Source of the DNA: a virus
Reading direction: 5' to 3' (one strand)
Length of the DNA stretch: 23,254 bases
IMG/VR virus record: IMGVR_UViG_3300027754_000456
Location: 1 to 23,254 of that record
This document shows positions 6,757 to 23,254 of this stretch, piece by piece. Numbering within the stretch: position 1 is the first letter of the stretch; the number at the start of each line of letters is the position of its first letter. The notes under the pieces are model-generated. The model saw only the letters and a list, made by a program, of their open reading frames with translations. It had not been told where the DNA came from and did no database searches. A program made the position numbers and the translations under genes.

Positions 6757-7278
6757 ATGCCCAAGATTAAAAAGCAATCGGCTTCCGCTTCGTTGCCTCC
6801 ACAGAATCCAGAGCGCAAAACTTTGGACGGCGTAGAATTGACCGGCACAGTTTACGACAACCCCGCTTTCGCTGCGGTTGGCTTTGGGATTTCAAAAGCT
6901 CAGATCCTTTGGGCACGGAAACAAGGTGCGCCTGGGTTTGCTCAAGGTCGGATCCATCACGACTTGCTATTGCCTTGGCTTCGCGAAAACGAAGCGAAGC
7001 TGTTTGACGACGAGTTGGACAAAAACGCTTGGGAATGCCGACGGTTACGCCTTCAGTGCCAAGCGATCGAGGATGAGAATGAGCGGATTCGTGAAGGATT
7101 TGTTACAAAAGAAGTTTTTGAAAACATGAAAAAGGAGATCGTGGCGGCTTTTACGATGCAAGTTTACTCGATCCCTTCGTGGCTTTCGATTGATGTTGCC
7201 GGCAATGCGCCGCATGAGACTGAAAGAAAAATGGTGGCGGCTTTTGATTCGATGATGGCGAAGCTTTCCGAGGGATGA
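6757..7278 (+). CDS. terminase small subunit (Nu1-like)
   Basis: The product has about 173 residues. The first part (after a polar N-terminus) has a winged-HTH pattern, FGISKAQILWARKQGAPGF then GRIHHDLLLPWLRE, like the DNA-binding domain of lambda Nu1-type small terminases. It continues into a charged helix (ECRRLRLQCQAIEDENERIR) for oligomerisation and large-subunit contact. It would recognise the packaging site and hand DNA to the large subunit. The ATG at 6757 is preferred; the frame extends eight codons upstream to a TTG inside the previous gene. Its stop overlaps the ATG of the large terminase (ATGA at 7275), which supports the pairing. Confidence 0.72.
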   Translation: MPKIKKQSASASLPPQNPERKTLDGVELTGTVYDNPAFAAVGFGISKAQILWARKQGAPGFAQGRIHHDLLLPWLRENEAKLFDDELDKNAWECRRLRLQCQAIEDENERIREGFVTKEVFENMKKEIVAAFTMQVYSIPSWLSIDVAGNAPHETERKMVAAFDSMMAKLSEG

Positions 7279-8990
7279 ACTGGCGAAAATACATCAAGCT
7301 GAAAAGCCGTGAGCCAATCTGGCGGTGGCTTGAACAGTTTTTATTTTTAAAAGGATCTCCTCACGGAAATAAGTTTCGGGCGGATTTGACTCCGTGGCTG
7401 AAAGAGCCGTTGTCAGAATTTGGCGACAATAAGAACCGAGAGATCACCTGCCAATGCTGCGTTCAAGGCGGCAAAACTACAGTGCTCCACGGGGCTGCTG
7501 TGTGGGCTATCTCTCAGGATTGCTCGACCATGTTCATCACGATGCAGACCGACGACGACGCTCGGGATTTTGCAAAGGAGCGGCTGAACCCCTCATTCGA
7601 CAAACTTGGCGTGGAGCAGATCGACTTTCCAAAGGAACGAACGCGGAGGGCAACTTGTTACATCTCCCTCCCTAACGGGTTCCTTTTGGTTCAGGGCGCG
7701 AACGAAAACAATTTACAAAGCAAGTCCGTCCGCTGGATCCTAAACGACGAGGTTTACCGATGGAAGCCAGGGCTGTTGGATGAAGCTCGAAAGCGGGGGA
7801 CAAGGTTCTGGAATCGGCGGATCCTGAATTGCTCAACTGCTGGCGATGCCGGTGATGACCTAGACCGAGCGTTTAAAGCTGGGGATCAGAGGATCTGGCA
7901 CCTACGTTGTCCGGCTTGCGACAAGCTGACACGCCCGCAGTGGGCAAGGATCAAGTGGGACAAGGAAGCTTGTCTTGTGGATGGCGAGTGGGACTACCTT
8001 AAGTTGAGGGACGGGGCGCAATACGAGTGCGAGCACTGCGCGGCACGCTACTTTCACACTCCTGAAACTCATCACCTGCTCAATTTAAGGGGTGAATTTG
8101 TGGCAACCAACCCGAGGCCGTCACCGCAAACGATCTCTTTTCAGTGGAACGCGCTGTGCCTTGCGCCTTCCGAGGTCTCGTGGGGTGAGCTGGCGGTTGA
8201 ATGGGTGAAAGCTGATGAGGAGTGGCGGCGGGGAAACGAGTTTCCACGCAAGGAGTTCATCACAAAACGGCTTGCGGAATCGTGGTCGAACGAGGTTTTA
8301 ACCCTAGAAGTTGACCTGCCAAAGTTGGAGGAGTCGAGCTGGGAAGGGGAGAAAGCGCGGTTCCTCACAATCGACGTCCAAGAGGATCACTTCTGGGCGA
8401 TTGTTCAGGGCTGGAACGCGGCGGGCGACGACTACATCCACTACGCGGATCGGTTGCTGACGTTTTCAAACCTTCGGGAGCTTCAAGAAACTTGGAATAT
8501 TCCTAGCTCATGCGTTTTTATTGATTCAGGGCATGACGCGCGGCGAGTTTATGCAGCCTGTGTGGATTACGGGTGGACGGCGTTCAAAGGTGAGGATGTC
8601 GCGACGATGCGGGTTTCAACAAAGGAAGGTTTTAAAAATTCCTTCTACTCGTGGCCACCAGGCAAAGGAGATCCGAACCTAGGCAAGACCTATCAAGGGC
8701 GCGGCGGCGTTTGCGCTTTGATTCGATGGGCCAAACGTGGCGTGCTGGACATTGCAGGCAACAGGCGAGATGCCCGAGGTGGAAAACAAAAGTGCTTTGT
8801 CTCTCCCACGGTCGGAGAACAGTTTCAAAAACAAATGTTCAGCGAGCAGCCACGAATTGAGCGCGACAAACGCGGGCGCGAGTTCCGGCGGTGGCATCGG
8901 ATTGGATCCAGACCGAATCACTTGTGGGACTGCTACTGCATGGGTGTAGTCGGTGCCTGCATGACAAGTTTTATTGGTGGCAAGGAATAG
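7275..8990 (+). CDS. terminase large subunit, lambda GpA family
   Basis: This 571-residue motor and nuclease cuts concatemers and pumps DNA into the prohead. The Walker-A-like VQGGKTTV is at about residues 63-70 and Walker B RWILNDEV at 153-160 (D158, E159). Cys pairs at 212/215 and 252/255 form a probable zinc site as in GpA proteins. The C-terminal nuclease shows acidic candidates D367 (FLTIDVQED), D417 (VFIDSGHD) and D552 (HLWDCY). Length and layout fit GpA (PF05876-type) terminases, which usually make cohesive ends, so cos packaging is likely but not shown here. It is preceded with overlap by the small subunit. Confidence 0.92.
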   Translation: MNWRKYIKLKSREPIWRWLEQFLFLKGSPHGNKFRADLTPWLKEPLSEFGDNKNREITCQCCVQGGKTTVLHGAAVWAISQDCSTMFITMQTDDDARDFAKERLNPSFDKLGVEQIDFPKERTRRATCYISLPNGFLLVQGANENNLQSKSVRWILNDEVYRWKPGLLDEARKRGTRFWNRRILNCSTAGDAGDDLDRAFKAGDQRIWHLRCPACDKLTRPQWARIKWDKEACLVDGEWDYLKLRDGAQYECEHCAARYFHTPETHHLLNLRGEFVATNPRPSPQTISFQWNALCLAPSEVSWGELAVEWVKADEEWRRGNEFPRKEFITKRLAESWSNEVLTLEVDLPKLEESSWEGEKARFLTIDVQEDHFWAIVQGWNAAGDDYIHYADRLLTFSNLRELQETWNIPSSCVFIDSGHDARRVYAACVDYGWTAFKGEDVATMRVSTKEGFKNSFYSWPPGKGDPNLGKTYQGRGGVCALIRWAKRGVLDIAGNRRDARGGKQKCFVSPTVGEQFQKQMFSEQPRIERDKRGREFRRWHRIGSRPNHLWDCYCMGVVGACMTSFIGGKE

Positions 8991-9017: not shown

Positions 9018-9260
9018 ATGGCCCTAGGATTATTTGTTTCATTTTCAAACGCGCAGTTGATCGAGATGCGCGACTCGGCGCAGCTGCAAATGATCGACGG
9101 CAAAAACCGCGTTATCACCGGCGCAGGGAGCGGAGATGTAAATTCTCAAAAGGCTTGGCAACTTGAACCTGCGGTTTTCTGGGAGGAACTCAACTGGGCA
9201 CTGATGCGCTCCGGCTCTCTCACCCGTAAAGTAACTCGCACAACCCCCCGCTACGTATGA
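9018..9260 (+). CDS. gpW-like head-tail joining protein candidate (80 aa)
   Basis: The small protein between large terminase and portal sits in the position of lambda W. It has a helical N-terminus (AQLIEMRDSAQLQMIDGKNR), a turn with VITGAGSGDV, then a second helix (PAVFWEELNWALMRS) and a basic, Thr/Arg-rich tail TRKVTRTTPRYV. That helix-strand-helix plus basic tail is the gpW/DUF6148-type pattern; such proteins plug the connector after packaging. The match is by size, order and fold pattern. The start is preceded by the ATTTGATTTCACCCC repeat. The gene overlaps the portal start by four bases. Confidence 0.65.
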   Translation: MALGLFVSFSNAQLIEMRDSAQLQMIDGKNRVITGAGSGDVNSQKAWQLEPAVFWEELNWALMRSGSLTRKVTRTTPRYV

Positions 9261-10783
9261 GTACAACCCACAAAATCAACATGCGGCGGGGCATAGAGCA
9301 GGACTACAGAGCCTCGGATAACATTTGGAACACCTCGGGGCTGACGGCTGACTCGATGCGCCCTAGGCGAACGGTGACGGCTGTGGACGGATCCACAAAG
9401 CTGGCAATCACCCCAAACGATTTTCAAAAGACGCTTAGTCTTTCGCGGCAATTGTTCGCTCGGGTCACGGAAGTTTCAGGGGCGTTGCTTCAGAAAAACA
9501 ACTACGTGATCGGGGACAGTTGGGAGCCTCGGTTCGACGGCGCGGATCAAGAGTGGGGTCGGGAGGCAGAGGATTATTTAGAGCGATGGTTCAAAGTTTG
9601 CAACTTGCGGGGCGAGCCGTTCGATTGGACAACGTCTCTTTATGTAGACTCGCTCTCGATTGATCGGGACGGCGACGCGGCAATGATTCTTGCGGTGGTG
9701 GATGGTGAGCCGAGGTTGCAATTTGTTGCGGCTCATCAAATCGGGTCGCGCTCGATTGCCGTTACAAATAAGGACGGGACAAGCACGGTCAACGGCGGAA
9801 GATTTTCCGGTGCGAAAATTTACAACGGCGCAATCTTTGGGAAGCATCAAAACGTCATTGGCTACAATATCCTCGGCGAAACTTCAAAAGAGGATCAACA
9901 AGTCGGCGTTGAAAGTTGCCAGCTACTTTACGAACCCGAGTGGTCGGATCAGGGGAGAGGCATTCCACGGCTTGCATCGTCGATACTGAATTGGATGGAC
10001 TATGAAGACATCCACCACTTCCTAAAGAAGCAGGTCAAACTCGATTCATCACAGGGCATTCTCCACTACAACGAAACCGGAGAGGCTGCTACCGAATCCG
10101 ACTTCATTCTTGGGCGTGACTCTGCCAGCGTCAATCAAGACGTCAAAGTTGAGCAATTGCAAGGCTCTGAGATTATGTATTTTAAGGCTTCCGGCGGGGG
10201 CAAGATTGAGCCTTTCCGTTCGGATCGTCCTAGTCCAAACGTGGACGCTTTCACGATGCGCCTTGTCAGGGGTTGCCTTCAGTCGATGGGTTGGTTCTTT
10301 GAAATTTACGATCCTTCAAAGGTCGGCGGATCCTCTACCCGCCTCATCCAAGACATGGCCAGAAGCTCGATTCGATCGAAGCAGAGGCTCGTGCAGCGTC
10401 GGGCTATGCGTGCCGTAGCCCACGCTCTTGGGGTGGCTATGGAAAGCGGGGCACTCCGTCAAAACGACAACGTGGATTGGCTGCGCTGGAGCTTTACGCT
10501 CCCCTCTCGCATCACCGTTGACGCTCATTACGATGATGAAACTTCCATGAACCGGATCAAGTTGGGTGCTGGCACCTACGCTGAGTTCTTCGGGGAGAAG
10601 GGGAAATGGTGGGAGGATGAGGTTCGGCAACGGATTAAAGAGCAGGCTTTCTTCATTGCAGAATGCGCACGCCAAGGGGTGGACGTGGATCAAGTGCAGC
10701 TGCTAACGCCTAACGGAATGCCTAAAGACATTGGCACACCCGCACCTGAACCAGCACCGGAACCCACAACGACCGGATTATGA
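9257..10783 (+). CDS. portal protein, lambda family
   Basis: This 508-residue protein forms the dodecameric ring at the head vertex through which DNA enters and leaves. The N-terminal arm (YRASDNIWNTSGLTADSMRP), the central FVAAHQIG region and the helical stretch around residues 355-385 (SSTRLIQDMARSSIRSKQRL) are typical of lambda-type portals (PF05136). The C-terminus is Pro/Glu-rich (GTPAPEPAPEPTTTGL). The gene order terminase, W-like, portal, S49 protease reproduces that of lambda. The ATG overlaps the previous stop, and its own stop overlaps the protease ATG (ATGA), implying translational coupling. Confidence 0.92.
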   Translation: MSTTHKINMRRGIEQDYRASDNIWNTSGLTADSMRPRRTVTAVDGSTKLAITPNDFQKTLSLSRQLFARVTEVSGALLQKNNYVIGDSWEPRFDGADQEWGREAEDYLERWFKVCNLRGEPFDWTTSLYVDSLSIDRDGDAAMILAVVDGEPRLQFVAAHQIGSRSIAVTNKDGTSTVNGGRFSGAKIYNGAIFGKHQNVIGYNILGETSKEDQQVGVESCQLLYEPEWSDQGRGIPRLASSILNWMDYEDIHHFLKKQVKLDSSQGILHYNETGEAATESDFILGRDSASVNQDVKVEQLQGSEIMYFKASGGGKIEPFRSDRPSPNVDAFTMRLVRGCLQSMGWFFEIYDPSKVGGSSTRLIQDMARSSIRSKQRLVQRRAMRAVAHALGVAMESGALRQNDNVDWLRWSFTLPSRITVDAHYDDETSMNRIKLGAGTYAEFFGEKGKWWEDEVRQRIKEQAFFIAECARQGVDVDQVQLLTPNGMPKDIGTPAPEPAPEPTTTGL

Positions 10784-12423: not shown

Positions 12424-13386
12424 ATGGCATTTTCAAATAGTGGGGCGGTATTAAGGGCGGACATCAACGCGATGGTGTTGGAAGCGGCTGCTGCTGAAAA
12501 CTTTTACATCGGAGCCTCGGTGCTCCCACCTCTTGCGGTTACCGCAAAGAGTGGGCAGTATCCCAAGTTCCGCAAGGCTGGGGCTGAGTTGCTCAATCCT
12601 GATGCAGAAGCTCGCGCAGCTACTGCTGGATATTCACGGGTCGTGCGTGAATACGACAACGACAATTATTCAACCGTGGAATTCGGTTTGGAAGAACTGA
12701 TTGGCGACGCTGACGGTGCGGAAATCGCACGCTTTTTTGATCTTGAAAAAGTTGCGGCAAATCTTGTGCGCCGACAAGTTCAGATCGGGCACGAGTCGCG
12801 GGTGCAGGCTGCAATCCAGAACGCAACCACGTTCAGCGCAACTACAAGCGCGGTTGCTTACACGGTCGCCCTAAAAGCTACCGCTGATTTTGCCTCCGAC
12901 GTACTGGGCGTCATCGACACCCTTAACGGTCGTGGCGAACAGCCAAATACGATCGTGATGAGCGGCGCGGTGTTCACTCGGATCAAGGGTCAAACTCTTT
13001 TCCAGAATTTCGTGCGTGGAAACCGCCCATCCGACATCACCGCCAACCTCTCGCAAGGCGCGGTTGCTCAAGCGTTCGCTGATGCGGGCATTACCAATGT
13101 TTATGTTGGGCGAGCTGCTCGCAACTCGGCAAACAAAGGCGCGGCGTTCGTTGCTTCGCCTATTTGGAACAATACACACGTTTGGGTTGGTCGCGTTGAG
13201 ACCGGCGACGTGATGAGCGGTGGAGTTGGTCGCACATTTTATTGGTCTGAGGACTCCGAGCTGTTCACCACAGAGACTTATCGTGATGAAGCTCGCAGGT
13301 CATCGGTTGTGCGAGTTCGTCAGCACGTCGCAGAGAAAATCATTGACGCAGATGCCGGTCAATTGATCACAACTCAATTTGCTTAA
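12424..13386 (+). CDS. major capsid protein
   Basis: This 320-residue protein follows the decoration-like gene and carries an AAGGA ribosome binding site (12409-12413), in line with high expression. Features include an N-terminal arm (AMVLEAAAAENFYIGASVLP), an extended loop region (YSRVVREYDNDNYSTVEFGL), a long helix (AARFFDLEKVAANLVRRQV-like stretch at about 105-120) and a C-terminal beta region. Order, length and pattern fit HK97-fold major capsid proteins of the GpE/Mu-like group. No cleavage site is obvious. It is followed by a strong intrinsic terminator, which suggests its mRNA ends here in part. Confidence 0.85.
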   Translation: MAFSNSGAVLRADINAMVLEAAAAENFYIGASVLPPLAVTAKSGQYPKFRKAGAELLNPDAEARAATAGYSRVVREYDNDNYSTVEFGLEELIGDADGAEIARFFDLEKVAANLVRRQVQIGHESRVQAAIQNATTFSATTSAVAYTVALKATADFASDVLGVIDTLNGRGEQPNTIVMSGAVFTRIKGQTLFQNFVRGNRPSDITANLSQGAVAQAFADAGITNVYVGRAARNSANKGAAFVASPIWNNTHVWVGRVETGDVMSGGVGRTFYWSEDSELFTTETYRDEARRSSVVRVRQHVAEKIIDADAGQLITTQFA

Positions 13387-15383: not shown

Positions 15384-15944
15384 GTGCAAAAGTATTCCAC
15401 CGCAATTTTACCTGAGCGCGTTCTCCTTCTGGGACAACGCCTCCAACCGCTATCTATTGGGCATTGCCTCGTCCTTGAGAGGATGGGCAATCCCTTTTTT
15501 GTTGGTGGCAAAATTGAGGTGGAGCACTTGTACGAGGCTGTCTACGTTTGCTGTCAAACGATGAACGAGGCTTGGGGTTCATTCTTTGACGACAATTTTG
15601 CAAAGAAGATTTTGAAGTGGCACAAGATGACGAAGCTGGTCAACTTCCAGCATTCTTGCGAAGTTTTCACGGAATACAAAGAAAGCGCGATGAGGTTTCC
15701 GCCGGTGACAAGCAACGGCGACGAGCCGAAACGCGAACTCGGCACGCCTTACCTTTTGCAACTCAAATTGGTTTTGCAAAGTAAGCTCAACTATCCAGAG
15801 GCTGAGGCTTTATCAAAACCGATTGGCGCGGCTATCTGGGAGGTTTACGGGCTTGCTGAAATGCGCGGCGATTGTCGAGTGATGAACTCGATTGAGGAAG
15901 AGATTGCGGATGCTCACCGTGAGTTGATCGGGAAAGATACCTAA
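15384..15944 (+). CDS. tail assembly chaperone-position protein (186 aa)
   Basis: The protein is encoded between the major tail gene and the tape measure, where siphoviruses have tail assembly chaperones (lambda G/GT). It is mostly helical with an aromatic and Cys-rich N-half (VEHLYEAVYVCCQTMNEAWG, ILKWHKMTKLVNFQHSCEVF) and a C-terminal helix (LSKPIGAAIWEVYGLAEMRG). The start is GTG at 15384, 9 bases after the tail gene and without a Shine-Dalgarno. The stop overlaps the tape-measure ATG. I see no in-frame slippery heptamer and no second T-like ORF, so a classic frameshifted G/GT pair is not visible. The function is inferred from place only. Confidence 0.6.
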   Translation: MQKYSTAILPERVLLLGQRLQPLSIGHCLVLERMGNPFFVGGKIEVEHLYEAVYVCCQTMNEAWGSFFDDNFAKKILKWHKMTKLVNFQHSCEVFTEYKESAMRFPPVTSNGDEPKRELGTPYLLQLKLVLQSKLNYPEAEALSKPIGAAIWEVYGLAEMRGDCRVMNSIEEEIADAHRELIGKDT

Positions 15945-17107
15945 TGGCGTTCATGGAATTATCAGCGCGGCTCGGGCTTGACGGGAGCGCGTTTAGGGCT
16001 GGGCTTGACAAGGCTAAGGCTGGGGTGGCTTCGCTTCGTTCCTCGATTGGCTCGGGGATTGGCTCTCAAGTTGGTGGGATGTTAGGGGTTGCGGCAATTG
16101 TGGCTTATGCAAAATCCACGATTGATCTGGGCGGGAAAATCTCTGACACCTCGGCACGGCTTGGGATCAGCGCGGAGGAGTTGCAACGGTGGACTTTTGC
16201 GGCAACTCAAACGGGAGCAAGTGCGGAAGATATCACGGGATTTTTTGAAAAGTTGGCGGTTGCAAAAGCGAAAGCGTTAGCAGGGGACAAGGCTGCAATT
16301 GCATCTTTTAAAGCTCTCGGCGTCAGCATGGACGACCTGAAGAAGAAAAAGGTCGCCGACCTTGCGGTTCAGGTTGGTAAGACAATGCAAAGTGGCAACG
16401 TCGAAGACTTGCTGCCAAGCCTCCGAGAAGTTGGGGGACGAGGTGCAGGAGCTTTAATCCCTGCTTTCAAAAGTGATTTTGAAAACGTGATGGCGAGTGC
16501 ACCCGTGATGAGTAACGAAGCCGTTGCCAAGATGGATGATGCAGGGGACAAGATTGATGAAGCAATGCTGCGGCTTAGAGTTCCGATGGCGGAATTGTTG
16601 GCGGCTTTGACGCCTCTTATAGAGTTTTTCGTTGACGGTGTCAGAATGATAATTGCGGTTTTGAAAGATGCTGGCGACACTTTTGTTGCACTCGGGACTG
16701 ACTTGCTTGCATTTGCCAAGTTGGATTTTTCGTTTTCAGCGTCAGCAGCTTCAAAAGCAAAAGACGCGGCGGAGGGTAACAATCTCGACAAACTGATTTC
16801 CCAGAAGAACGAAGAAATGGCGGCGGAAGAAGCTAGAATTGCAGCAAAAGAAGCGTTGAAAGCAGCGGGGCCAGCGGCACCAACTCCAGAGCCTACGGCT
16901 GCGGCTGTGGCAAAAGCAAAGCCAGAACCTCTCCCACCAATTGCACCTACGATCCGAGATTCTCTCGCGAATATCGGCGGTTTTACAATGGCGCAAAACA
17001 AAGAAGTGCTCGACGTTCAAAAAGTGCAGGTTTCTTTGCTTGAAAAGATCGTGGACAACACCGACAAAATAGAGGCTCCAGCTACAGTTGATGACGGTCT
17101 CGATTAA
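15944..17107 (+). CDS. tape measure protein (short)
   Basis: The 387-residue protein is Ala/Gly-rich and helical, with the start LSARLGLDGSAFRAGLDKAK characteristic of tape measures, a helix-breaking Gly-rich zone, the ISDTSARLGISAEELQRWTF block and a hydrophobic central stretch (ALTPLIEFFVDGVRMIIAVL). The C-part is Pro/Ala/Glu-rich, then LLEKIVDNTDKI. It sets tail length: with the usual ~0.15 nm per residue, a short tail of about 60 nm is predicted. Its first two bases overlap the previous stop. Confidence 0.8.
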   Translation: MAFMELSARLGLDGSAFRAGLDKAKAGVASLRSSIGSGIGSQVGGMLGVAAIVAYAKSTIDLGGKISDTSARLGISAEELQRWTFAATQTGASAEDITGFFEKLAVAKAKALAGDKAAIASFKALGVSMDDLKKKKVADLAVQVGKTMQSGNVEDLLPSLREVGGRGAGALIPAFKSDFENVMASAPVMSNEAVAKMDDAGDKIDEAMLRLRVPMAELLAALTPLIEFFVDGVRMIIAVLKDAGDTFVALGTDLLAFAKLDFSFSASAASKAKDAAEGNNLDKLISQKNEEMAAEEARIAAKEALKAAGPAAPTPEPTAAAVAKAKPEPLPPIAPTIRDSLANIGGFTMAQNKEVLDVQKVQVSLLEKIVDNTDKIEAPATVDDGLD

Positions 17108-18540: not shown

Positions 18541-21500
18541 GTGGCGACAACATTCCCCACCTCTCCATCGGTCGAAGTTGGCGAAGTTTTGTCGTCAACC
18601 AAGCTGGCGCAACAAGCCGACGCGGTCAACGCGCGGCTTCGTTCTGGGCTAGGTGAGCCGTGGCGGATTGTTTTTTTGATGGCGAGTTTGTTCCGTCAAA
18701 TGCGGAACCCCGAGGGCACAGCGTTCCCTCCTCAATTTGAGTTCTTCAGATTCTATCAGCATTTGGATCCAAGCGTGGGGCAATGGGGCGCACCTGTCGG
18801 GGATCCGGGCGGAATCAATGTCACAAGCTCCCTAGCCTCGTTTATTTACGGCGTTGACTCGGCAAATATCGACTCGGAATACTCAAACCTCCAGAGCGTT
18901 CCTTTGCTCACGACGGATGACACACCCCCCACTACACCCTCTGAGTTTTGGACTTTGGCGAAGCGGCAACGCGGGGCGGTTGAACTTGTCACGGGTTACT
19001 CTGCTGCTCCGATGCTCGATGCTTCTGACAAATTTTGGCAGCTTTATCAGGGGCCGCGAAGCCCACACGGTAACGCTTTCGGGGCTTTGCTTCCGGGGCC
19101 TTCTGAGGCTTCACCTTGCCCAGATGGAACAGTGCCGCTGGAGTTTAAGCTCACAAAAATAGGGTCTAATCCAGTGGTGACGGTTTCGTGGACGACTGAT
19201 TGTGACCTGACTCCCGTAACAGGCACGCAAGTCGGCACAAACGTTGCTTTCATATTTGCAACGGAAACGTTGTGGTATGTTGTGAAAATCAACGGATCCT
19301 TTGAGACGTTCCCGAGGTCGGAATACATCGAGGGGCCTTACACCGAGCAGGCAAAGCTGCGGAAAACCTCGGCAAAGATGTTAGATCGGGTCATTGCCTT
19401 ATTTGCTTCAGAGTTCAGGGGGAGCCTAGAACAGAGGGAGCTTTTATCTGATCGGCTCTCTTACGCTTTCGACTATCAACGGTTTTTCACAAGCCAATAT
19501 CTACTGGCTCCGGCTCGCGGGCAAGTAGTCGGGGACTCGATCATTCCTCTTTATCCACAAGCCAAGATGGACTGCTCGGAAACGAACGCAAAGGGGGCAA
19601 GGTTAACGTTTAACGGCGGAGGAGGGTATCCGGTCACCTCCGGTTTCGTAATCGCCAGCGCAATCGTTAGAGCGTTTGGGCTTCCGCTTTCCTCGCTGAC
19701 GATTGATTTTAGAGTTGGGGAAAATATCGCAGAACAGTTGTCAATTTTCTTGGACTCCACCGGCAACGGCGAAGCACTTCACACGTTTTCAAATCCGCCT
19801 AAAGCTGGATCGGCTTTGATTGTGACAATCGGGGACAGGATCGAAGGCAAAGCAGGGGCAAGGATTGAAGCTGAGTTTGCGGAGTTGAAAGAGCACAAGC
19901 CGACCATCTGGGACGCTTACACCCTGATTCGATTATCAACGGGCGCGGTGGCATCGGTGGAGTCGCAAGGCACAACTGAGACGGGTGCAAAGGAGGTCTT
20001 TAGAAGTTACGTAACTAAAGGCTGCGTCACGAGTATCAACGGGGCACTTTCCTTCCCAGATGCCCCTGAGAATATCAATCAATCGGCGATTTACGAAACG
20101 GCGCGGAGGCTTTCAAAGAATGTTCGCATCATCCCGAGGCAGCAACTCTTAGGCTACGAGGTCACCGGCGGCAAAAGCATCCTTTATTTTAAGCGGCACG
20201 CTTTCAACCTTGGTTTTGTTGACGCTTTTGAAGGCATTGCCCCAACTGCGGCGGAGATTCTAAAGAACGCAAACGCAAACGGGATCCGAGCTGTGGCACC
20301 TTCTGGCGGGTGGTCAAATGAATGGTTGATGGGCGTGGATTTTAAAAACTCCTCGGGGTTCAACAATAACACGTCTCAATTTAGACCAGAGGTTTACTCC
20401 GACTATTTTGCGCTCAATAATCGGTGCCTCTTTCACTCCGCAAGTTTGGCAAGCGGTGTCAATTCACGAACGCGGAATCATTTTGTTCCTGGGCTTGCAA
20501 ACGTTGCGACATCGACGCTGAATGGGAACCTGATTGCCGAAGCTCCGAGCTCTTGGAACTACGGGCCAACCGATAACTACGGGTCGAGCCTTAACCTTGA
20601 GGTCTGCGGGGCAATGGACACGGACTGCATCACAAACCGTCTCAACTTTTATAAGTCATGCAGGATTTATGAGCCTTGGCCTGAGATCGAAAGCGTCACA
20701 AGTCAAATGGAAGGCGGCGTTGAGGTTGCCAAAATCACTTTCAAAGGTCGGATCAGATCAACGGTTGGAGAAACGTGGGGGGCTCCTGCTACAATTTCTC
20801 GTGATATATCTACGTGGAACATCACTGATTTAAAAGCAGAGCCCTTTCGTTGTGATGAAAACGGGATTCGTGAGTATCTTTGGATGCAGTCGAGCGGTGT
20901 AAAATGTGAGTTTAATCAAGCGGGCAACTTCGCTCTTGACGCAACATTGGCTTCGCTTCCAAGCGGGTTAGCTGGTGCTTGTTTCCCTGATTTCCTGTTT
21001 GTAAAACTGATTGAAAAACCGTTTGCGGACGACAACACGGCGCAGGACACCAAAGATAGCCCCGTCACTTTCGATCAAGAGGTTGCAAAAGAGGTTTATT
21101 TGAGGGCGATTTGTGAAAGTTTTGTGGACAAACTTACCACCGTAAACCTGAACTGTGTGACTAACTTTTCAGGGGTTTACAATTACACGTTTGAAAACCT
21201 TCAACATCAAGCGCACGGCAATCAATGGCTGCCACTAATGTCTAAGGGCGACCGTCCCGACGCACCGCGAGGCTTCTGGCCCGTGCCAAACACTGTTTTA
21301 AGAGCGGAGCGGTTCAATCAATTTTCGCAAGCGGTCAACCTGTTGGACACTATCCCGTTGATGATTCCTATCAAGGTCGAGGGGCGGTTGACCACGAAGT
21401 CGGGGACGAAACTGCACACGGGTATTGGATGGCCCAACCCTGCGGACGCGTGCGCGGTGCCAAACGTGGCGGCGGTGCGTGCCTTAGTTGAGATTTCCAA

Positions 21501-22092
21501 TATCGAAATGCCAACAGTGGTTGTCGGCGCGTGGTTTTTAATTAGCGGAACGCAAAATTTAACCGCCATTTCTGTTTTGTCCGAAGGTGTTTGCGGCGCG
21601 GGCGGGGAGTGGACGCAAATTCAAGACACCGACAGCCTTGAGATTCGCACGGTTTTAGATCTTGGCGATCAATTGAGCGCGCTTCCACCAACAATCTCGA
21701 CCATGGTGACAAACGGTGAGGCTTCGGTTTTGTATAAAACGGTCAAAACGGAAAACTACAACGGGATTGAATATTCGGTAAGTTCTGCTGGCACTTACTG
21801 TTGCGGTGCAATTGATTCAGTGGATCCTACCATTTGCCACGGAACATGGTTTCACGACGGCGCAACGCACGGCTACAACTTCCCTTCCCTTGGTAGTGCT
21901 GAAACAATTTGCAGAGTGAGCGATGGGTTGCAAATTCACGATCCTGCGCTTGAATTTACACCGAGAGGCGTGTCATTCATCCAAGGCGACGGCGGCGCGT
22001 CTGGGGGTTGTTCTGGAGGTTGGGCGGCTTATCTTGTCGTTGACGTGCTTGGATCCGCGTTTGACCGTGTGCTCAAAATACCTTTGACCTAA
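18541..22092 (+). CDS. very large tail-tip / baseplate protein (1183 aa), function unresolved
   Basis: This is the largest gene of the window, starting at GTG 18541, five bases after the previous stop. Its length and position (after the tape measure and tip proteins, before the fibre) correspond to the central tip or receptor-binding protein of siphoviruses. I cannot match it to lambda J or a lysin. It is not repetitive, has many Cys residues and Gly/Asn/Ser loops (e.g. CPDGTVPLEF near 196; CCGAIDS; GGASGGCSGG near the end) and no membrane segment. A zinc or disulphide-stabilised secreted-type fold is possible. It is followed with overlap by the zinc-ribbon gene (ATG in the stop at 22092). 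Confidence 0.6.
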   Translation: MATTFPTSPSVEVGEVLSSTKLAQQADAVNARLRSGLGEPWRIVFLMASLFRQMRNPEGTAFPPQFEFFRFYQHLDPSVGQWGAPVGDPGGINVTSSLASFIYGVDSANIDSEYSNLQSVPLLTTDDTPPTTPSEFWTLAKRQRGAVELVTGYSAAPMLDASDKFWQLYQGPRSPHGNAFGALLPGPSEASPCPDGTVPLEFKLTKIGSNPVVTVSWTTDCDLTPVTGTQVGTNVAFIFATETLWYVVKINGSFETFPRSEYIEGPYTEQAKLRKTSAKMLDRVIALFASEFRGSLEQRELLSDRLSYAFDYQRFFTSQYLLAPARGQVVGDSIIPLYPQAKMDCSETNAKGARLTFNGGGGYPVTSGFVIASAIVRAFGLPLSSLTIDFRVGENIAEQLSIFLDSTGNGEALHTFSNPPKAGSALIVTIGDRIEGKAGARIEAEFAELKEHKPTIWDAYTLIRLSTGAVASVESQGTTETGAKEVFRSYVTKGCVTSINGALSFPDAPENINQSAIYETARRLSKNVRIIPRQQLLGYEVTGGKSILYFKRHAFNLGFVDAFEGIAPTAAEILKNANANGIRAVAPSGGWSNEWLMGVDFKNSSGFNNNTSQFRPEVYSDYFALNNRCLFHSASLASGVNSRTRNHFVPGLANVATSTLNGNLIAEAPSSWNYGPTDNYGSSLNLEVCGAMDTDCITNRLNFYKSCRIYEPWPEIESVTSQMEGGVEVAKITFKGRIRSTVGETWGAPATISRDISTWNITDLKAEPFRCDENGIREYLWMQSSGVKCEFNQAGNFALDATLASLPSGLAGACFPDFLFVKLIEKPFADDNTAQDTKDSPVTFDQEVAKEVYLRAICESFVDKLTTVNLNCVTNFSGVYNYTFENLQHQAHGNQWLPLMSKGDRPDAPRGFWPVPNTVLRAERFNQFSQAVNLLDTIPLMIPIKVEGRLTTKSGTKLHTGIGWPNPADACAVPNVAAVRALVEISNIEMPTVVVGAWFLISGTQNLTAISVLSEGVCGAGGEWTQIQDTDSLEIRTVLDLGDQLSALPPTISTMVTNGEASVLYKTVKTENYNGIEYSVSSAGTYCCGAIDSVDPTICHGTWFHDGATHGYNFPSLGSAETICRVSDGLQIHDPALEFTPRGVSFIQGDGGASGGCSGGWAAYLVVDVLGSAFDRVLKIPLT

Positions 22093-22361
22093 TGATTTTT
22101 AAAATAACAAAAAAGTCAGGCATCAACTGCAAACAAATGATTTCAAACGTTTCACGAGACGCTGTTAGGGCTGCGACGTTGGCTTTGCAAGGCAAGAGGG
22201 TTGCGGCAACAGGCGCAGAGATTGCGGCGCGGGTGCTCGTGTGCAGCACTTGCCCAGCGTTCGACGCAACGATGAACAGGTGCAAGGATTGCGGCTGCTT
22301 TCTGCGATTTAAGCAAGGGCTGGCATCATCTCGGTGCCCAAGAGATTTGTGGGCAGTTTGA
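22092..22361 (+). CDS. small zinc-ribbon protein in tail region (89 aa)
   Basis: The C-terminal half holds LVCSTCPAFDATMNRCKDCG, then CFLRFKQGLASSRCPRDLW: Cys pairs CSTC and CKDCGC, plus a single C before PRDLW. This CxxC...CxxCGC...CP..W arrangement is a small zinc-binding module that recurs near tail or tip genes of many phages. The N-terminal half is basic and helical. It overlaps the preceding gene by one base. It may help assemble the tip or the fibre that follows; this is inference, the motif is seen. Confidence 0.65.
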   Translation: MIFKITKKSGINCKQMISNVSRDAVRAATLALQGKRVAATGAEIAARVLVCSTCPAFDATMNRCKDCGCFLRFKQGLASSRCPRDLWAV

Positions 22362-22374
22362 TTTGAAGGCTTTT

Positions 22375-23254
22375 ATGATGAGACTCGCGCTTAGGTTCCT
22401 GATTATTTTACTTTTAACGACTGCCGCTGTAAACGCTCAGCAGCTCGTGATTGGCGTGGGCACAACTGCTAACGATGGATCAGGTGATCCAGTCCGCACG
22501 GCGTTTCAAAAGGCTAATACCAACTTCACTGCTGTCTTTTTGAACATTTTGACGGTTTCAAATACCGTTACCTCAACTGTTGCAAATTTAACAACAGTTT
22601 CAAACTCTGTGGGAACCGTTGCGGCAAACCTGACAACCGTTTCAAACTCGGTCGGTGTCGTGGCTGGGAATTTGACAACAGTTTCAAACGCTGTGACGGT
22701 CAACACGGCAAACTTGACAACGGTTTCAAACGCTGTGACGGTCAACACTGGCAATTTGACAACGGTGTCCAACTCGGTTGGAACTGTTGCTGCAAATTTA
22801 ACGGTGGTTTCAAATTCTTTGACGACGGTTTCTAATTCTTTGACCGGCAAAATCAACGCACAAACAGGCACCACCTACTCTTTTCTGATCGGTGACGCTG
22901 GGAAATTAACGACGTTCAGCAACGCCAGCTCAGTCGCTGTGACCCTTGGATTCATCGGGCCGTTTGCTGACGGCACAGTTTTCCACGCAAAAAACATCGG
23001 AGCTGGGGTTGTCACGATTACTCCCACGGGGGCAACGATTGATTTTGCTGCAACACTGATTTTGACCAAGGGGCAATCTGCTTCGATTTTCTCAGATGGG
23101 ACAAATTACAGAACGACGTTGATTCACCCGAATATTTCAACGGAGCTTTTTGCAAATGTTTTGAATGTTGCCAACCCAGCCTCTCCTTCAACGGCTCAAA
23201 GAGTTGACCTTTATTCGTCAACGGATTCAATTCAGACACCTGCAAACTACGCCA
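22375..23254 (+). CDS. tail fibre-like protein with N-terminal signal peptide (3' end outside window)
   Basis: The frame runs from ATG 22375 (or 22378) to the window end: 293 codons, partial. Residues 1-21 have an Arg, a hydrophobic core (LRFLIILLLTTAAVNA) and an Ala-type cleavage site, like a Sec signal peptide. Next comes VIGVGTTANDGSGDPVRTAF and QKANTNF, a well-known motif of phage tail-fibre and virion proteins. Then follow 14-residue repeats (NLTTVSNSVGTVAA) typical of a trimeric coiled-coil shaft, and a beta-rich segment (AGVVTITPTGATIDF, LTKGQSASIFSDGTNYRTTL) typical of phage fibre tips. A signal peptide on a phage fibre is unusual. An AAGG lies shortly before the start. The C-terminal receptor domain is outside the window. 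Confidence 0.75.
   Translation, partial: MMRLALRFLIILLLTTAAVNAQQLVIGVGTTANDGSGDPVRTAFQKANTNFTAVFLNILTVSNTVTSTVANLTTVSNSVGTVAANLTTVSNSVGVVAGNLTTVSNAVTVNTANLTTVSNAVTVNTGNLTTVSNSVGTVAANLTVVSNSLTTVSNSLTGKINAQTGTTYSFLIGDAGKLTTFSNASSVAVTLGFIGPFADGTVFHAKNIGAGVVTITPTGATIDFAATLILTKGQSASIFSDGTNYRTTLIHPNISTELFANVLNVANPASPSTAQRVDLYSSTDSIQTPANYA
22585..22794 (+). repeat. five tandem 42-base coding repeats (14 aa) in the fibre shaft
   Basis: Units begin at 22585, 22627, 22669, 22711 and 22753, exactly 42 bases apart, with a partial sixth from 22795. Each encodes a version of NLTTVSNSVGTVAA. Units 3 and 4 (AVTVNT versions) are nearest to each other. Such units set coiled-coil length and may change by slippage or unequal recombination. 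Confidence 0.8.

Follow-up and report, generated by a model that had tools for sequence, protein, structure and literature searches.

A tail fibre gene of a metagenomic tailed phage with a predicted Sec signal peptide ahead of a gp10-type docking motif

By the usual account, the fibres of tailed phages assemble in the cytoplasm. Why, then, would a fibre gene at the end of a phage contig begin with what resembles a signal for export? The window analysed here is the entire virus record IMGVR_UViG_3300027754_000456 (23,254 bases), in which gene calls and PHROG and Pfam matches located the late genes of a tailed phage (Table 1). The fibre ORF is open from its ATG at 22375 to the contig end at 23254; a full fibre is encoded by a sister phage, IMGVR_UViG_3300033233_000150 (loci L002, L004, and L005). 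Upstream, the 1183-aa protein matched nothing in PHROG or Pfam, and within IMG/VR only the sister phage has a homologue; the adjoining Cys-rich protein matched DUF6171 below that family's cut-off. On the 3' side of the sister fibre lie a small membrane-protein-like ORF and then overlapping Rz/Rz1-like ORFs (by eye), the latter of which contains a lipobox-like stretch (also by eye); Pfam gave no match for the two ORFs tested there.

Table 1. Late genes of the window and features of the fibre gene.
Feature	Position	Strand	Basis
Terminase large subunit (GpA type)	7275..8990	+	PF05876, PF20454
Portal protein	9257..10783	+	PF05136, phrog_21
Major head protein	12424..13386	+	phrog_1005, E = 5.7e-34
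Tape-measure-like protein	15944..17107	+	phrog_9570, E = 5.5e-15
1183-aa protein, no signal by rule, conserved in sister phage	18541..22092	+	
89-aa Cys-rich protein, adjoins fibre gene on its 5' side	22092..22361	+	phrog_13558, function unknown
GAAGG, Shine-Dalgarno-like, 5 bases 5' of the ATG	22365..22369	+	Read directly
Fibre gene, 3'-truncated by contig end, 293 codons present (539 in sister)	22375..23254	+	
Leader, 21 codons, predicted Sec signal peptide, cut after VNA	22375..22437	+	Rule scorer; sister conservation
Predicted mature N-terminus QQLVIGVGTTA, 11 residues	22438..22470	+	Length as in 225/235 leaderless homologues
T4 gp10/gp9-type N-terminal motif NDGSGDPVRTAFQKANTNF	22471..22527	+	Homology search, profile
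Repetitive NLTTVSNSV stalk, predicted helix	22528..22845	+	Read directly; sister-fibre model
Globular-looking module (INAQTGTTYSF...), ends approximate	22846..23124	+	tblastn, residues 160-247

The fibre start reads MMRLALRFLIILLLTTAAVNA, then, across the predicted cut, QQLVIGVGTTA, and then NDGSGDPVRTAFQKANTNF. Arg occupies residues 3 and 7 of the leader, which also contains a hydrophobic stretch free of charges (F-L-I-I-L-L-L) and has V-N-A immediately before Q22. These parts of a signal peptide had been named in a preliminary description of this DNA and are all present; that description also had VNA directly before the fibre motif, but 11 residues stand between the two. A home-made, uncalibrated rule scorer found the form expected for Sec and signal peptidase I (positive n-region, hydrophobic h-region, and small residues at -3 and -1), with its best cut after A21. 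The leader was the sole positive among the 33 non-overlapping window ORFs scored; on 120 control loci the same rule returned 25 positives in 962 ORFs, one of them with Gln after the cut. Lipoprotein and Tat signals were ruled out, as the leader has neither Cys nor twin Arg, and disulfide formation was rejected as a reason for export because the 539-aa sister fibre lacks Cys. The reading of the leader as a Sec signal cleavable by signal peptidase I is, as a prediction from sequence, well supported.

Conservation in the sister phage indicates that the leader is no accident. Five of its 21 codons differ between the two phages, four synonymously and one by a conservative change from Ile to Leu (dS 0.25, dN 0.021); under random placement, at least four synonymous changes out of five would be expected with P = 0.016. 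Codons 22-58 evolve like the leader (dS 0.47, dN 0.048). Because the sister keeps the leader with four of five codon changes synonymous, the leader is beyond chance, and the start-codon context and the spacing described below also argue against a chance leader. The same changes bear on whether it is read at all. Two in-frame GTG codons lie 3' of the leader in the window, and translation might begin at either (codon 25 or 28) and leave the leader unread or inert; one related fibre, L222, has an inner ATG that would give MAQIDSTNIG. We consider such a downstream start very improbable: a ribosome-binding-like sequence precedes the ATG (GAGGG occupies this position in the sister phage) and none precedes either GTG, the leader changes are mostly synonymous, and the leader-bearing fibres of L146, L186, and L224 offer no further in-frame start after the leader ATG until the motif is reached, which means that in those phages the leader must be read. 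Translation of the leader is well supported.

Beyond the leader, the protein is that of a phage. The window has the conserved [ND]DGxGDxxRxxxxKxNxNF motif, and a short N-terminal query reached 665 phage records at a loose limit; most of the matches listed are to baseplate wedge or fibre connector proteins. A profile of ten N-termini, including that of the window, matched T4 gp10 (E = 3e-11) from residue 2, with gp10 residue 2 aligned to position 2 of the mature-end profile. The INAQTGTTYSF module further downstream is common to minor tail and tail-fibre proteins of phage records (tblastn). A hijacked host surface protein, one suggestion of the preliminary description, is unlikely and was ruled out because tblastn, motif, and profile matches identify the part after the leader as a phage gp10-type motif and fibre.

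In 225 of 235 leaderless motif proteins, 11 residues separate residue 2 from the motif (L222 was entered as leaderless on its inner ATG, and four places lacking a suitable ATG were set aside), and these proteins mostly begin, after Met, with AKQ, AQQ, or ARQ. In the window precursor the motif starts at residue 33, and the 11-residue spacing arises only if the predicted cut occurs. Across nine leader-bearing fibres the mature-end spacing was 10 residues in two, 11 in five, and 12 in two. The cuts used for this count were picked by eye, adjoining Gln in all but L266; in L146, L214, L222, L207, and L266 the rule favoured another cut. In L214, L207, and L146 the leader ends where, or just before, the match to the gp9/gp10 families begins, at profile position 2-4. 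Since leaderless homologues begin at the predicted mature end, the leader is an addition whose removal would restore the usual N-terminus. The Gln after the window's cut may have been inherited from the MAQQ-type starts of leaderless relatives.

A leader that stays on the protein would be of different use, either holding the fibre at the inner membrane during assembly or placing a hydrophobic end inside the tail. A single-chain model of the full sister fibre (mean pLDDT 40.9), which has a helix at residues 39-146 with block pLDDT of about 50-80, extends the leader at low confidence as one helix to residue 26; this and the conservation of the leader in the sister would suit a retained anchor. 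We nevertheless regard retention as unlikely, given that a fitting cut site sits where leaderless homologues start, that some 21 hydrophobic residues would otherwise precede a motif that T4 gp10 has at its N-terminus, and that the Gln found after the cut in Cellulophaga virion proteins (see below) fits cleavage.

Leaders of this kind are not confined to the window and its sister. Eight further metagenomic phage contigs (L146, L186, L207, L214, L222, L224, L266, and L285) have leaders at the same place before the motif, and, the window and sister pair excepted, all leader sequences differ. How many were found depended on the search. A leader-blind motif pattern returned 120 stretches in which no leader was seen, and an IGVG-limited pattern returned 39 with leaders in two (the sister and L146); a hydrophobic-codon pattern gave leaders in nine, the sister included, of at least 119 stretches, which is not a frequency, as the pattern itself selects hydrophobic codons. 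A signal in homologous fibres, raised in the preliminary description as a check, is thus present in the sister and in eight other contigs and absent from most motif homologues; absence from close relatives, raised there as a refutation, is not what we observed in L002, the sole close relative found, although the distant phage P8625 lacks such a signal.

Several leader-bearing phages also have signals on neighbouring lectin-like and beta-helix genes. Rule-positive ORFs numbered six of 15 in L285 (including the fibre, a Laminin_G_3 protein, and a beta-helix protein, with tape measure, protease, and portal genes adjoining), three of 11 in L222 (adjoining the portal gene), four of five in L266, and four of 16 in L146, where one is the head protein and a beta-helix protein is positive by eye; portal, protease, and head protein genes adjoin in L146. 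The L146 major head protein (L146:4994-5971, phrog_1005) begins with the leader-like stretch MNPKPKTGRLTAVLALACTAPLWA; the match to its family opens with residue 55 aligned to profile position 31, and the predicted cut coincides with a GTG that may be the true start. This head protein also matched Akkermansia phage DTMo-2021a. In L185, a signal-bearing, outer-membrane-protein-like gene with no Pfam match (L185:5756-6352) follows a fibre with a C-terminus resembling that of the sister fibre.

These contigs bear on a further alternative, in which a phage protease removes the leader in the cytoplasm at virion maturation and nothing is exported. Fibres are not known as usual targets of prohead proteases, and a site of signal-peptidase form, followed by Gln, recurs in leaders that are unrelated to one another. 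The pairing of a signal-like head-protein start with a head maturation protease in L146 is what such processing might look like, and passages of PMC10367356, which describe signals on head proteins of P. gingivalis phages too, propose a prohead protease for them. For the fibre of the window we consider this route improbable.

Whether a signal-bearing protein can end up in a virion was assessed in cultured marine phages. Our sample comprised 85 proteins flagged by MS/MS or as virion proteins in the GenBank annotations of seven Cellulophaga baltica phage records; notes ending at 'part of structural virion' were counted as virion-flagged, and phi14:2 gp062 and gp063 (MS-noted) and the phi38:1 proteins called structural by similarity were left out. 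By the rule, 12 of the 85 have leaders: 4/12 in phi10:1 (gp091-094), 3/12 in phi18:3 (gp085-087), 4/14 in phi19:1 (gp101-104), and 1/14 in phi39:1 (gp26), with 0/17 in phi14:2, 0/9 in phi18:1, and 0/7 in phi46:1. A signal in phi39:1 gp25 is visible by eye and negative by the rule. Each of the 12 is annotated as a tail fiber, a tail protein, a pectate lyase, or a structural protein; together they occupy the final tail-module genes, with the exception of phi18:3, where the positives start the listed structural genes and the tail protein gp087 is last. Gln follows the rule's cut in 10 of the 12, as it does in substrates of signal peptidase I among the Bacteroidetes (PMC5837995, PMC10653852). Phages phi10:1 and phi19:1 belong to Assiduviridae and phi18:3 to Pachyviridae; some of the positives are close homologues, and therefore the 12 are not independent cases. 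The MS/MS-flagged proteins with the motif, phi14:2 gp078 and phi39:1 gp24, have no leader. An MS/MS flag does not reveal where a protein starts, and a phage preparation may contain secreted contaminants. On the strength of these records, signal-bearing adhesins can be parts of virions, as the window fibre may be by analogy; the gp10-type motif is not among the known features of those 12.

Two details of these phages may be recorded alongside. The first 42 residues of phi10:1 gp094 (L305:46438-47391), signal included, match the starts of two families, one of pectate lyases and one of tail proteins, as if signal and docking tip had been swapped as one piece. The small, MS/MS-flagged phi39:1 gp24 (L309:16302-16625), with the gp10-like motif NDGLGDDARTWAGKTNENF, is encoded directly 5' of the signal-bearing gp25 and gp26 and is a possible docking adaptor.

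The presence of signal-bearing proteins in Cellulophaga virions weakens a reading of the fibre as a decoy only. The preliminary description had proposed surface display, a decoy, an exclusion factor, or a membrane anchor, and as the main role none of these is favoured by virion records that include signal-bearing fibre and pectate-lyase proteins. An exported factor outside the virion, periplasmic or at the surface, could mask receptors, exclude other phages, or degrade surface glycans during infection, and the lectin-like or beta-helix character of several signal-bearing neighbours in other phages would suit it, as would the P. gingivalis phage Q-rule proteins that are thought, according to PMC10367356, to alter the outer membrane. 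We judge this role, too, unlikely for the window fibre, which is encoded within the tail module and opens with a motif for docking on baseplates; a virion role and a non-virion surface role do not exclude each other.

The host of the phage is perhaps a member of the Verrucomicrobiota, as far as sequence similarity can tell. Among the matches listed, the terminase had its top bit score with Verrucomicrobia phage P8625, which also has the portal and tape measure in common with the window. None of 24 P8625 proteins scored had a signal, nor did the tail genes of FCL-2. Host searches yielded 111 stretches by head-protein alignment, none confirmed, and five by motif pattern in genome_contigs, with no such leader seen; the window head protein found no match among phage records, and a fibre search that covered the sister phage and the L006-L009 records was positive in one of the five, the sister. 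Gln directly follows the predicted cut of the window (VNA, then Q), as in the Q-rule of Bacteroidetes. PMC5837995 describes that rule as specific to Bacteroidetes, and Gln after the cut as the pattern of their signal-peptidase-I substrates is found there and in passages of PMC10653852. If the host is a member of the Verrucomicrobiota, the Gln need not mean the Q-rule.

Other gene content was noted in these phages. The sister phage encodes on its minus strand a BspA-type leucine-rich repeat protein (L004:16598-17425) with the C-terminal domain of RNA polymerase alpha at its C-terminal end. In L009 (11706-18045), metabolic-type genes stand between head and tail genes: dehydrogenase E1, transketolase pyrimidine-binding proteins, a zinc alcohol dehydrogenase, an FkbM methyltransferase, and a glycosyltransferase-like protein. 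A similar set is present in L008; the family searches covered the L009 copies.

The reading that we prefer, to which as a whole chain we assign a probability of roughly 55%, is that of a virion fibre made as a Sec precursor. The reconstructed order of events would be as follows: the gene encodes a tail fibre precursor with a cleavable Sec signal; the precursor would cross the inner membrane, where host signal peptidase I would cut after VNA; the mature fibre, its N-terminus then equal to that of leaderless relatives to about one residue, would carry a coiled-coil-like stalk behind a gp10-type docking end that is now free. Fibres would wait in the periplasm during the cytoplasmic assembly of heads and tails, and would dock onto tails once lysis opens the inner membrane. 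The fibre would then end in the virion and not serve as a decoy alone, a placement that we infer from the Cellulophaga phages. More generally, and at somewhat less than even odds, some tailed phages may build two-compartment virions, with heads and tails from the cytoplasm and an adhesion apparatus of fibres, lectin-like proteins, and beta-helix spikes from the periplasm, made by way of Sec and signal peptidase, the two joined at lysis; the signal would have been gained repeatedly ahead of gp10-type docking ends, its cleavage recreating the docking N-terminus. Both the docking motif and the export signal are known; their combination is unforeseen by the usual account of tailed-phage assembly. 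If true, assembly would involve two compartments, joined late, at lysis, and the fibre would encounter chaperones, proteases, and receptors of the periplasm earlier than the virion. The idea is directly testable in cultured Cellulophaga phages, and it would offer a possible function for the phage signal-bearing proteins whose role is given as unknown in PMC10367356.

In open-licence literature we found no statement that signal-bearing adhesins or fibres are parts of virions, which is not proof of absence; PMC6199706 describes the DGR proteins of phages as free of signals. A related description is that of the P. gingivalis phage Q-rule proteins, which, in passages of PMC10367356, carry Sec signals of host type with Gln next to the cut, as in the window; they are likened here by description, and unlike the fibre have no known function, a point restated in a passage of PMC10653852. 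T4 gp10 (baseplate wedge) and gp9 (fibre connector) share with the window their N-terminal motif, which in the window stands equally far from the N-terminus once the predicted cut is made; unlike the window, gp10 has no leader, its residue 2 being profile position 2, and the rest of the fibre is, as far as tested, unrelated to either protein. The Cellulophaga adhesins, which are MS/MS-flagged in virions, resemble the window in having Sec-type leaders on proteins, fibre-like or of pectate-lyase type, that are encoded where the tail module ends; they differ in belonging to other phage families and in having Cellulophaga baltica as host. Virion proteins made with a Sec signal are familiar from the coats of filamentous phages; those coats are inserted in the membrane and extruded without lysis, with no assembly of head and tail.
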